The position numbers and the translations under genes were made by a program. Positions 32,093 to 35,358 of a DNA stretch of 64,000 nucleotides are shown in pieces. Numbering within the stretch: the stretch's first letter is position 1; each line of letters begins with the position of its first letter. This DNA is from Rhodoluna limnophila (lineage in GTDB: Bacteria; Actinomycetota; Actinomycetes; Actinomycetales; Microbacteriaceae), in the NCBI RefSeq assembly GCF_005845365.1, contig NZ_CP040509.1, positions 1 to 64,000 on the forward strand, read 5' to 3'. Under the pieces are notes generated by a model. The model was not told where the DNA came from and did not search any database. It was given only the letters and a program-made list of their open reading frames with translations.

Positions 32093-32890
32093 TTAGTTTC
32101 CGCCGCTGGCCAACAGAGCCACAAATCCATCGGTGGCGGCTAACTCGCCATCGGGCAAAATAAAGATCGCTTCGATGCCGTCAACTTTATTAAGGTCGGC
32201 AATGGCTCTAGGGCCTTCGGCAAAAGCGGCGGTTGCCCAAATGTCTGCGGTGACTAAATCTTTGGCCACCACGCTAACCTGAAGCAACTCACGCGCCGGT
32301 GCTTTGCCCGAAGCCTTTGGGTTCCAGATGTGCTCGCCGCGTTCAGCTGATCCACTAGTTGCCAGCGCACGGTAATCGGTGTTGGCCAGGTCAATCACAG
32401 TTAGCACCCCAGCTTCTGGGCTGGCAATAGACACCGGTTTTGAAACACCGATGCGCCAGTCGCGCGCCTCGGTAACACCGTCGGCCAACCAAACGTCTCC
32501 GCCGGCGTTCATCGTAAAGTCATCGATTCCGGCGGCTACCAGCACAGATGCTGCTTCGGCAGCCGCCCAGGTTTTTACCAATCCGGATGGGTCAAAAGTA
32601 TTTTGTGGAGTCATGGCGCTGAACCAGCCGTTGGTCACCTTTTCCCAGTGGTCACAGGCGTCCCAAATTTCGGCAACCACCGGGGGCAGTGAGGCCAGGT
32701 TGGTCTCGCCTCGGGCCAGGCGACTGATTGGTGACTCTGGTTTATAGGTACTGAAAGTCTCATCTGCCTGGTGCAAGACCCGGCAGGCCTCGGCCAATAA
32801 CTCAGCCACTTGGGCTTCTGGCAACTCAGTTCGCCCCGCAAATCTGAAGGCAGTGCCCATACAGATTTCGGTGTGGTCAAAGGTGGTCAT
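32093..32890 (-). CDS. apbE: FAD:protein FMN transferase ApbE
   Basis: ApbE attaches FMN covalently to a threonine of target flavoproteins using FAD. The 265-residue protein has family elements near the N-terminus (DETFSTYKPESPISRL), TFDPSGLVKTWAAE, NAGGDVWL and DLVTADIWATAAF, the last being the usual metal-site region. No lipoprotein signal is evident. The start is either ATG 32890 (1-base overlap with the upstream stop) or GTG 32893 (4-base overlap). Its likely substrates are the two FMN-binding proteins encoded directly upstream. Confidence 0.92.
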   Translation of the reverse strand: MTTFDHTEICMGTAFRFAGRTELPEAQVAELLAEACRVLHQADETFSTYKPESPISRLARGETNLASLPPVVAEIWDACDHWEKVTNGWFSAMTPQNTFDPSGLVKTWAAAEAASVLVAAGIDDFTMNAGGDVWLADGVTEARDWRIGVSKPVSIASPEAGVLTVIDLANTDYRALATSGSAERGEHIWNPKASGKAPARELLQVSVVAKDLVTADIWATAAFAEGPRAIADLNKVDGIEAIFILPDGELAATDGFVALLASGGN

Positions 32891-33306
32891 CACTGCAGCT
32901 TCGATAGCGCGCTAGCCAGCGCCTCTTGATAGGCATCGGTGCTAAAGGTTGCTCCAGAGGCATTACCAAAGTCTGCGCTCTGGGCTTTAAGTGCAGCTGC
33001 GTTCAAGACCGGAAAAACCGCGTCATAACCATCGGTAGCGGTGGCGACTACCTCGTTGATGCTTTCGATTTGACCATCGGTAGCCGTAATTTCTAGCTGA
33101 ACCTCACCGTATCGGTACGTAATTGTGTCACCGGTTACGGTCTGCGTTGTGGTTGTGCCGTCGGCTGAGTCGCTGCCCAATTCTGGGTTCAGGATGGCGT
33201 TGATGCCAAAGCCTCCGCCGAGGCTAACTGCAGCCAGTGCGACTAACCCGCCAGCCCAGTTTCTTTTGGGTGCGACTGCCAAGAGTGGTTGATCAAAATT
33301 TAGCAA
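32890..33306 (-). CDS. FMN-binding domain protein with flavinylation motif (second copy)
   Basis: A 138-residue membrane-anchored protein: a short basic N-terminus, one hydrophobic segment (about 16-35), and an FMN_bind domain ending in SGATFSTDAY, where the Thr of SGAT (about Thr120) is the predicted ApbE flavinylation site. I placed the start at TTG 33306, which has GGAG 7 bases upstream; the frame extends to 33381 but has no better start. It overlaps the preceding FMN-binding gene by 14 bases and apbE by 1. Confidence 0.82.
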   Translation of the reverse strand: MLNFDQPLLAVAPKRNWAGGLVALAAVSLGGGFGINAILNPELGSDSADGTTTTQTVTGDTITYRYGEVQLEITATDGQIESINEVVATATDGYDAVFPVLNAAALKAQSADFGNASGATFSTDAYQEALASALSKLQ

Positions 33307-33853
33307 GAGCTGACTCCACTGCTTTTTTGAAGGCGTTTGTTGTGTAGGTGGCATTTGAGATGTTGCCAAAGTTGCTGCCATTTGCCTTGATGGCTGCGGC
33401 TACCAAACTCGGGAAAGCCTTGTCGCGACCATCTGATGACTCAGCCCGAAGCAGTTTGATCGTGGTGATCACATCACCCTTTTTAACCACCTCAACCTGA
33501 ACAAATCCGTAACCCTTACCCACGTCAATGACATCGCCGGTCTTGGTCACCGATGCTGTGCTGGTCGTGCCGCCGGTACCTGCGTTGGTGGTGGCAGAAG
33601 GCGCCGGAGTGCTTGTAGTTGTACCCGAAGCCTGGCCGGTTGCGGCTGGCTCCTTTGCTGCTGCTGACTCGCTGGCCGTAGGGGTTGGCTCGGCCATGAT
33701 CTGACTTGAGGCCGCGCCATCAGGGTTGGTTGATTCGGTCGCGCTAGGTTCAGCAAAGTTAAAGCCGGTCTCGGCAGTTAGGCCAATTTGATAGCTGGCT
33801 GCAAATAGGCCAAGACTCACCAAGCCAAGCGTTGATTTCGTTGCGGTTCTCAC
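33293..33853 (-). CDS. FMN-binding domain protein with flavinylation motif (first copy)
   Basis: A 186-residue protein with an N-terminal membrane/signal segment (about 8-27), a long Ser/Thr/Ala/Pro linker (about 35-105) and a C-terminal FMN_bind domain. Near its end, ISNATYTTNAF carries an S-x-A-T motif with the predicted flavinylated Thr at about 169. Start GTG 33853 overlaps the ferric-reductase stop (GTGA) by 4 bases. The linker suggests the flavin domain reaches outward from the membrane. Confidence 0.85.
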   Translation of the reverse strand: MRTATKSTLGLVSLGLFAASYQIGLTAETGFNFAEPSATESTNPDGAASSQIMAEPTPTASESAAAKEPAATGQASGTTTSTPAPSATTNAGTGGTTSTASVTKTGDVIDVGKGYGFVQVEVVKKGDVITTIKLLRAESSDGRDKAFPSLVAAAIKANGSNFGNISNATYTTNAFKKAVESALAKF

Positions 33854-35277
33854 CAGGAGTACTCCTCTGCGTGAATATTCTCTTCTGGGGTGCCGGAGCG
33901 AATAACGGACTTTCTTACAATCTTGGTCCAAGCCTCAGGGCCACAAACATAGACGTCAGAATCTGAGACCCAAGGTGCCATGACGGTTAGGCGGGCTTGA
34001 TCCGGAAGACCATCGGTGTCGTGGTTCATCCAAGAGCCATCTTTGCCGCGTGGGCCGGTAAGCACGTGCAACTGAAAGCCGCGACGTCGTGCAATTACCC
34101 GCACCTCTCCAAGCAGCGCTGCATCTTCATCGCTGCGCACTCGATAAATTATGGTGATGTCTCCTGGGCGGGCAGCCATTGATTCGGCAAGCGCGCGAAC
34201 CGGTGGAATACCAATTCCAGAGGCAATCAAAACCACCTTTTCTTTGGTGCGGCGTTCTTCGGTAAACACTCCGTATGGGCCTTCGACCATCACGCGGGTG
34301 CCAGGCTTTAGCTTCTGCAGCGCAGCCGTGTCGTCACCTCGGTTGCCGATGGTGAAGCGCATGAACTGGTTGTTCGGTGCCGCTGAGATTGAGAATGGGT
34401 GAGGTCTCCACCACTGCTTTGGGGTCAGCAAACGCAGCATGTAAAACTGGCCGGCTTGCCCACCAAGTTGTTCGATGTTTTTGCCGGTGATGTACAAAGA
34501 GGTTGCGTCACTCGACTCTGCCACGACAGCCTGAACGCTCAGGTTCATTTTGAAGCCACGGATAATCGGGGCGAGCACGCGGTACCAGATCAGGTTCACT
34601 GCAACGAATAGGTACAGGGTTACCCAAAAAATGGTTTGAACCGGTTTGCCGGCAATGTCGGTGCCGGAGGTAAAGATGTGAGGCACCGCCAATAGAACTG
34701 ACGCGTAAGACATCACGTGAACGATGTACCAGGCTTCGTAGCTCATTTTTCGGCGTGCAAAATTGAGCGAAGTAACGACCACCAAGATCATCAGAGCCAA
34801 GGCCAAGCTAGCGGTAAGCATGTCTGGAACATCGGTAATTAGGTAGGTCAACTCGGCAATTAGTGTGCGCCCATCGGTGATGGCCATGCCAATCAGTGAT
34901 GCCAAAAAGTGGGCCACGATGAAGTACAGAACCGGTTTACCCAAACGCTTGTGGGCCAGGGTTGCCTTGTCGTGTCCGTAAAACTTGTCGATCCAAGGCA
35001 CTCGTGCCACCAACAACATGTGAATCAAAAGCAGGTCGGTGCCGATAAGTGCGGTTAGTCGGCTGGCGGCATCGAGCGCTGAGGGAACATCGGTGATGTC
35101 TTTTAGTCCACCGGCAGCCAAAAACATAACAATGACCGCAACCACGCTGGCCCAGGCAATACCCTCGATGATGTCTTGGGCACGCTTGAGGCGCAAATAC
35201 TTGCGCACACCCAAACGGACTTTACCGTTGGGTTTCACGAGCTGCAGGTCTTTGAACATGCTTCTAATCTGACGCAT
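33850..35277 (-). CDS. Ferric-reductase-like membrane flavocytochrome with NAD(P)H:flavin domain
   Basis: A 475-residue protein. The N-terminal half has about six helices with candidate haem histidines (in LLIHMLL, FIVAHFL, WYIVHVM and AVPHIF). The C-terminal half is a ferredoxin-reductase module with the FAD motif HPFSIS, the NAD(P) motif ASGIGIPPVRAL, and a terminal CGPEAW. It should take electrons from cytosolic NAD(P)H and pass them across the membrane. It heads the operon with two FMN-binding proteins and ApbE. Start taken at ATG 35277; ATG 35259 is an alternative. Confidence 0.88.
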   Translation of the reverse strand: MRQIRSMFKDLQLVKPNGKVRLGVRKYLRLKRAQDIIEGIAWASVVAVIVMFLAAGGLKDITDVPSALDAASRLTALIGTDLLLIHMLLVARVPWIDKFYGHDKATLAHKRLGKPVLYFIVAHFLASLIGMAITDGRTLIAELTYLITDVPDMLTASLALALMILVVVTSLNFARRKMSYEAWYIVHVMSYASVLLAVPHIFTSGTDIAGKPVQTIFWVTLYLFVAVNLIWYRVLAPIIRGFKMNLSVQAVVAESSDATSLYITGKNIEQLGGQAGQFYMLRLLTPKQWWRPHPFSISAAPNNQFMRFTIGNRGDDTAALQKLKPGTRVMVEGPYGVFTEERRTKEKVVLIASGIGIPPVRALAESMAARPGDITIIYRVRSDEDAALLGEVRVIARRRGFQLHVLTGPRGKDGSWMNHDTDGLPDQARLTVMAPWVSDSDVYVCGPEAWTKIVRKSVIRSGTPEENIHAEEYSW

Positions 35278-35325
35278 GAATCTGGAAGTTTCCTGAATGA
35301 AGGCTGTAAGCGACCTCGGAGATTA

Positions 35326-35358
35326 AGTGTTTCACGAACGACCCACTCTCGAAACACT
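35326..35358. repeat. Inverted repeat between divergent operons
   Basis: AGTGTTTC at 35326-35333 and GAAACACT at 35351-35358 are perfect inverted copies separated by 17 bases. They sit in the 111-base gap between the ferric-reductase operon and the ATP-grasp operon, a position suited to an operator for either promoter. Confidence 0.5.

Follow-up and report, generated by a model that had tools for sequence, protein, structure and literature searches.

Where do outward-facing flavin-carrying proteins acquire their cofactor when the enzyme that attaches it has no export signal? This question is raised by a four-gene operon at 32093–35277 in Rhodoluna limnophila, within a stretch of 64,000 nucleotides (contig NZ_CP040509.1, positions 1 to 64,000; hereafter the window). 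The operon encodes an NAD(P)H/flavin adenine dinucleotide (FAD)/di-heme flavocytochrome, two flavin mononucleotide (FMN)-binding proteins with one FMN_bind domain each (FMN1 and FMN2), and the flavin transferase ApbE. We propose that this module probably exports electrons via FMN2 and FMN1, and that ApbE attaches FMN to both in the cytosol before their export with N-in/C-out topology. The genes and the predicted attachment sites are as follows.

32093..32890, minus strand: ApbE, FAD:protein FMN transferase, no signal peptide or lipobox (PF02424, 108 bits)
32890..33306, minus strand: FMN2, signal anchor, 15-residue linker, one FMN_bind domain (Pfam, model)
32947..32958, minus strand: SGAT, predicted FMN-Thr120 of FMN2 (sequence)
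33293..33853, minus strand: FMN1, signal anchor, 75-residue S/T/P/G/A-rich linker, one FMN_bind domain (Pfam, hydropathy)
33347..33358, minus strand: SNAT, predicted FMN-Thr169 of FMN1 (sequence)
33850..35277, minus strand: flavocytochrome, Ferric_reduct membrane, FAD and NAD(P)H domains, MsrQ-like/NOX-like (Pfam)

An earlier note on this DNA had described a flavin electron-transfer operon with gene overlaps of 1–14 bases. The operon was confirmed, and its reading as a transmembrane electron-export module is supported. All four genes lie on the minus strand with Pfam scores above the curated cut-offs; they encode a donor, ApbE and two candidate carriers of covalent flavin, and they overlap by 4 nt (GTGA), 14 nt and 1 nt. 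FMN2 begins with TTG inside the 14-nt overlap, and ApbE with ATG at the 1-nt overlap, which becomes 4 nt if a GTG start is taken. The class of module is, as also stated there, already known: it corresponds to the MsrQ-like flavinylated system of Actinobacteria (PMC8238504), in that the PF01794 protein is encoded at most five genes away from ApbE or FMN_bind and carries the usual but optional C-terminal NAD-binding domain (PF00175).

The same note had called the operon extracytoplasmic, and here the modifying enzyme departs from it, since ApbE has no export signal. Its reading frame extends no more than a few codons upstream of MTTFDHTEICMGT, and the start is pinned by the gene overlap. Comparison was made with loci read with one script (120 in total: the window, 39 + 1 loci and 80 loci, with some overlap; one has no scored flavocytochrome), and a leader was called at a 15-residue mean hydropathy of at least 1.9 from the most upstream start permitted by the overlap. 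None of the 79 ApbE located downstream of an FMN gene passed (83 distinct ApbE were present in the loci; near copies are included in the 79, and L131 is an uninformative fragment). Four Chloroflexota loci (L117, L125, L141 and L151) were likewise leaderless. Of 16 further loci, L239 and L249 contained no match to ApbE, L243 gave a fragment and L253 has no flavocytochrome; no leader was found in the 12 informative ApbE beside flavocytochrome and FMN genes, 10 of them from g27, a genus with large genomes. As a control, 22 of the 30 best ApbE Pfam matches of the phylum passed the 1.9 mark, indicating that the measure works. The family residues D100, G103, K106, G131, D132, H187, D216 and T220 are each kept in 78 or more of the 80 sequences compared, and ApbE should therefore be active.

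Judged from their sequences, the FMN proteins appear to be anchored in the membrane with N-in/C-out topology and to lack a twin-arginine motif. Hydropathy exceeded 1.6 in 88 of 94 FMN1-type (F1) and 33 of 34 FMN2-type (F2) proteins, and none of these had a lipobox. The charge before the hydrophobic segment was higher than that after it in 114 of the 128 proteins, with the reverse in 1. In the window, the hydropathy maxima were 2.01 for FMN2 and 1.54 for FMN1.

An ApbE acting outside needs FAD outside; therefore, we examined the distribution of EetB (PF07456), which serves FAD export in Listeria (PMC9973259). EetB was not found in the R. limnophila genome. In a sample of 296 Actinomycetota genomes, 142 had ApbE and 48 had EetB, and leaders were scored in 128 of the 142 (genome call: hydropathy above 1.9, or a lipobox with hydropathy above 1.3). 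Among the 57 genomes with one or more leadered ApbE, 45 had EetB; among the 71 in which only leaderless ApbE was scored, 0 had it. Eleven of the 71, R. limnophila included, had been added by hand, and one genome (G186) was set aside, its contig ending inside the gene; the table before both of these changes was 45/12 versus 0/61 (Fisher P = 8e-22, kinship ignored). When families were compared, EetB occurred in at least one genome of 14 of 15 leader-only families and in 0 of 26 leaderless-only families. Two families (f42 and f56) hold both leadered and leaderless ApbE, and EetB tracks the leadered state in them (leadered versus leaderless: 3/3 versus 0/8 in f42, 9/9 versus 0/1 in f56).

The leaderless ApbE, the outward FMN proteins and the EetB correlation together led us to favour, with moderate confidence, attachment of FMN in the cytosol. 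Leaderless ApbE would place FMN on the Thr of the SxAT motif there, drawing on the cell's own FAD, and the FMN proteins would leave after loading as signal-anchor proteins; with FMN attached inside, an FAD exporter would not be needed. In the working module, cytosolic NAD(P)H would reduce the FAD domain of the flavocytochrome, and electrons would traverse the membrane via two bis-His hemes. They would pass to covalent FMN on FMN2, whose short tether would keep it close to the membrane, and then to that on FMN1, which would reach outward on its long tether; the final recipient would be an acceptor outside the cell, with ferric iron the likeliest candidate. The wider proposal, that leaderless ApbE of Actinomycetota flavocytochrome-type systems and of the four Chloroflexota loci loads FMN in the cytosol prior to Sec export, as a second route beside that of Listeria, is put forward tentatively, at somewhat less than an even chance.

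The published accounts consulted treat flavin-carrier loading as extracytosolic and reliant on exported FAD. Our literature searches turned up nothing about leaderless ApbE in Actinobacteria, which does not prove that no such account exists. Flavin-carrying surface proteins are widespread; if the proposal is true, a whole branch loads them inside, which shifts the site of cofactor addition and makes an FAD exporter dispensable, and the FMN proteins become a test of whether a polypeptide that already bears a large covalent cofactor can pass through Sec. Natural transformation and gene replacement work in Rhodoluna lacicola (PMC11577799), so the loading question is open to experiment in the host genus.

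Several observations weigh against cytosolic loading. The sampled genomes are related, and kinship was handled only through the family comparison; some of them hold further ApbE copies beyond those scored. EetB is missing from 12 of the 57 genomes with a leadered ApbE, and 11 of these 12 belong to family f28; therefore, other sources of FAD exist, and absence of EetB is no proof that FAD is not exported. Leader calls came from hydropathy and not from a trained predictor, with different marks for ApbE (1.9) and FMN proteins (1.6). At the 1.6 mark, 3 of the 79 ApbE pass (L120, L123 and L139), apparently by way of the first strand of the domain, and FMN1 of the window falls under it. The SNAT of FMN1 and the loss of the consensus Asp, described below, weaken the flavinylation motif. 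Furthermore, Sec threads unfolded chains, and passage of an FMN-bearing chain is presumed. Sec can accept chains with bulky adducts, and the minimal motif of seven residues would let ApbE act on the chain before it folds.

A rival reading is an ApbE acting outside, exported without a recognisable signal and supplied with FAD by an unknown transporter; we consider this unlikely. The characterised ApbE of extracytosolic systems do act outside, and in Salmonella a cytosolic ApbE did not substitute for the periplasmic one (PMC12052999). A lipoprotein or secretion signal is usual in the family but not universal, and cytosolic members are known. The leadered genomes without EetB likewise point to FAD routes that are not known. 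The absence of leaders from both ApbE sets (0/79 and 0/12) and of EetB from the leaderless genomes (0/71) argues against this reading.

Both FMN proteins had been said to end in motifs matching the ApbE consensus. The SxAT part of this stands (GNISNAT in FMN1, GNASGAT in FMN2), but the Asp of the seven-residue consensus DxxSGAT (PMC12052999) is absent from both, and in FMN1 the match is further reduced by N in place of G. A-S/T was present at the expected site in all 128 distinct FMN proteins, including all 34 F2 (5 of the 128 were missed by the first A-S/T pattern and fit on inspection), whereas the Asp at position 1 occurred in 0 of 76 Rhodoluna-group domains versus 21 of 52 others. In a Klebsiella pneumoniae model protein, substitution of this Asp by Ala is reported to have minor effects, and that of Gly by Ala to give about half the flavinylation (PMC12052999). 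Flavinylation of both proteins is therefore likely, with FMN1 the less certain. The PF04205 scores were 27.9 bits for FMN1 and 25.2 bits for FMN2 (cut-off 22). The FMN2 domain was modelled at a predicted local distance difference test score (pLDDT) above 90 and its anchor part below 50, and the nearest Protein Data Bank (PDB) structure of the domain was 8p2a (SaFMN3 domain 2; template-modelling (TM) score by target 0.87, 40% identity).

The contrast between a long linker in FMN1 and a short one in FMN2, noticed in the window (75 versus 15 residues), proved systematic: in each of the 33 pairs the FMN1 linker exceeded that of FMN2 (median 93 versus 22), which fits one carrier near the membrane and another reaching far from it, as the earlier note had suggested. 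FMN proteins of single-carrier loci had a median linker of 69 (n = 61); the shorter FMN2 tether seems to be the derived state. Adjacent separate FMN genes behind a single flavocytochrome were found only in the Rhodoluna (Luna-1) group among the 120 loci sampled; with identical copies removed, this group has 34 paired and 9 single-carrier loci. At the same place, a genus with genomes of 8–10 Mb has one protein of one to three FMN domains; the carrier pair thus represents a known arrangement divided over separate proteins. Two Cryobacterium loci (L126 and L152) have the order flavocytochrome-FMN-flavocytochrome-FMN-ApbE, that is, tandem pairs with one ApbE, and another locus (L068 of genome G024) is a divergent single-carrier locus with ApbE on the opposite strand.

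It seems unlikely that FMN2 arose by recent duplication and serves no function of its own. Single-carrier relatives do exist in the Rhodoluna group, and losses are inferred on the flavocytochrome tree, but A-S/T at the attachment site is kept in 34 of 34 F2 and the short linker in 33 of 33 pairs. Both the FMN and the flavocytochrome tree separate the Rhodoluna group from other genera. In the FMN tree the single-carrier lineages branch first, and the flavocytochrome tree disagrees; because the two trees conflict on a single origin of pairing, dating of the carrier pair from them was abandoned, and a single origin with later losses is not proven.

The flavocytochrome scored 56 bits for PF01794, 30.7 bits for PF00175 (cut-off 22) and 28.5 bits for PF08022. 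His 109, 123, 187 and 200 were invariant in 14 flavocytochrome homologues and make up two predicted heme sites. The best phmmer match was 8qt6 (E 4e-16); the structural model (pLDDT 87) had SpNOX 8qta as its top PDB fold (E 2e-18, TM score by query 0.66). A flavocytochrome acting mainly like an NADPH oxidase, reducing oxygen while the FMN proteins release superoxide or peroxide outside, is nevertheless rather improbable. Although SpNOX is the closest solved fold, the conserved FMN and ApbE partners seen here are, to our knowledge, not part of SpNOX as solved. Reduced SaFMN3 is reported to consume oxygen (PMC10339131), but oxygen reactivity is common among reduced flavins. The molybdoenzyme MsrP was considered as a partner and set aside: the single match to PF00174 (molybdopterin oxidoreductase) was marginal (24.5 bits, cut-off 24), in a 187-residue frame at genome position 101923 (L342) that lies outside the window and is unlinked to the operon.

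No gene in the operon or its conserved surroundings indicated the acceptor, and ferric iron is our best guess. It is favoured by three lines of evidence: Bifidobacterium breve mutants in apbE and in sifE, which encodes an FMN-binding protein, are sensitive to ferrous-iron chelators (PMC5449479); a VIT1 gene adjoins the module in 6 of 9 Cryobacterium loci (one Pfam-checked); and 153 VIT1 clusters are listed in the survey of MsrQ-like systems (PMC8238504). Against it, 49 of 59 relatives have VIT1 whether or not they carry the module, and the gene is present but unlinked to the module in R. limnophila; co-occurrence of this iron transporter was therefore dropped as a clue, since it does not discriminate.

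Cytosolic flavinylation followed by exit of the folded, loaded FMN proteins through the twin-arginine translocation (Tat) system is distinctly improbable, because FMN1 and FMN2 of the window have no RR pair, the positive region of F1 is very short and a Tat-like motif occurs in 0 of 42 F1 and 0 of 34 F2 of the Rhodoluna group, even though TatC is present in R. limnophila, which counts against Sec, and in 55 of the 59 genomes searched, and although outside the group 18 of 52 F1 have an RR pair and 3 of 52 the fuller motif. On these motif counts Tat was set aside as the main export route in the Rhodoluna group, and it is by elimination that we infer export by Sec.

Upstream of the flavocytochrome gene, the following element was recognised.

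35282..35298, minus strand: 11-bp direct repeat ATTCAGGAAACTTCCAG, promoter-proximal, a weak copy of a repeat conserved in relatives (by eye)

In the Rhodoluna group, the repeat of the relatives is of the TCNCAG-N5-TCNCAG type, at times with three units, and ends about 22–24 nt before the flavocytochrome ATG. Because it ends 22 nt before the ATG at 35259, the true start of the window gene is probably there and not at 35277. Of 38 upstream regions of relatives, 18 match the regular expression written for the repeat; the window copy does not. In the Rhodoluna group, the repeat looks like a box for a regulator of the OmpR/PhoP family, with a 5' leader that is very short or absent. Across 7 genomes the pattern had 6 matches versus 2 for a reversed control; in the window it was not enriched (6 matches versus 9.3 expected). 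The same repeat and spacing precede a gene for a small DUF4190 membrane protein in two Rhodoluna-group genomes (L255 and L257), and the regulon was given up as a route to the acceptor, as these 2 of the 6 matches name none. Arthrobacter-type loci L118, L131 and L137 have response-regulator and histidine-kinase genes just upstream of the flavocytochrome gene (Pfam for L137), and L115 and L116 a response regulator alone.

An inverted repeat (AGTGTTTC / GAAACACT, 35326–35358) was seen by eye between the operon and a divergent ATP-grasp-type gene, and its arm was found again by eye in some relatives with the same divergent gene. Genes upstream of the module vary in the Rhodoluna group, those downstream on the opposite strand are thioesterase-like and M13 peptidase-like by our own reading of the sequence, and a gene-neighbour comparison revealed no conserved enzyme gene adjoining the module in the group. 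The R. limnophila genome (1.40 Mb, one contig, 99.94% complete) contained no further ApbE, FMN_bind or PF01794 gene in our searches. Close relatives by sequence were Rhodoluna and Microbacteriaceae metagenome-assembled genomes, and no relative of the flavocytochrome was found among the viral contigs searched.

Among known systems, SpNOX, for which we know of no FMN carrier or ApbE partner, is alike in the fold of the flavocytochrome (8qta, 8qt6). The operon also resembles the MsrQ-like systems, in which a PF01794 and NAD-domain flavocytochrome is encoded beside FMN_bind and apbE genes; these are frequent in Actinobacteria, which supply most of the 1468 genomes holding the 1797 known clusters, and the NAD domain is present in 1437 clusters (PMC8238504). 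The present operon differs from them in having two single-domain carriers, one on a long and one on a short tether, and in its leaderless ApbE, a point without mention in the available part of that paper. SaFMN3 of Streptomyces azureus, in which FMN is bonded to Thr (PMC10339131; PDB 8p2a), has the same domain fold and an N-terminal anchor, but carries three domains on one chain where two proteins are found here. The related clusters of the large-genome genus also resemble our operon, with a flavocytochrome, an FMN protein of up to three domains and a leaderless ApbE. The anchor of SaFMN3 has been described as in line with extracellular transferases (PMC10339131), a view that the leaderless ApbE of these related clusters does not fit. 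The extracellular electron transfer system of Listeria (PplA, FmnB, EetB/FmnA; PMC9973259) shares extracytosolic flavin carriers loaded by an ApbE-type enzyme; there the transferase works outside the cytosol and depends on EetB/FmnA to export FAD, whereas EetB was not found in R. limnophila and ApbE is leaderless. The cytosolic ApbE of K. pneumoniae (PMC12052999) similarly lacks a signal peptide, but its target is a soluble cytosolic fumarate reductase, whereas the candidate targets of the Rhodoluna enzyme are probably exported proteins.

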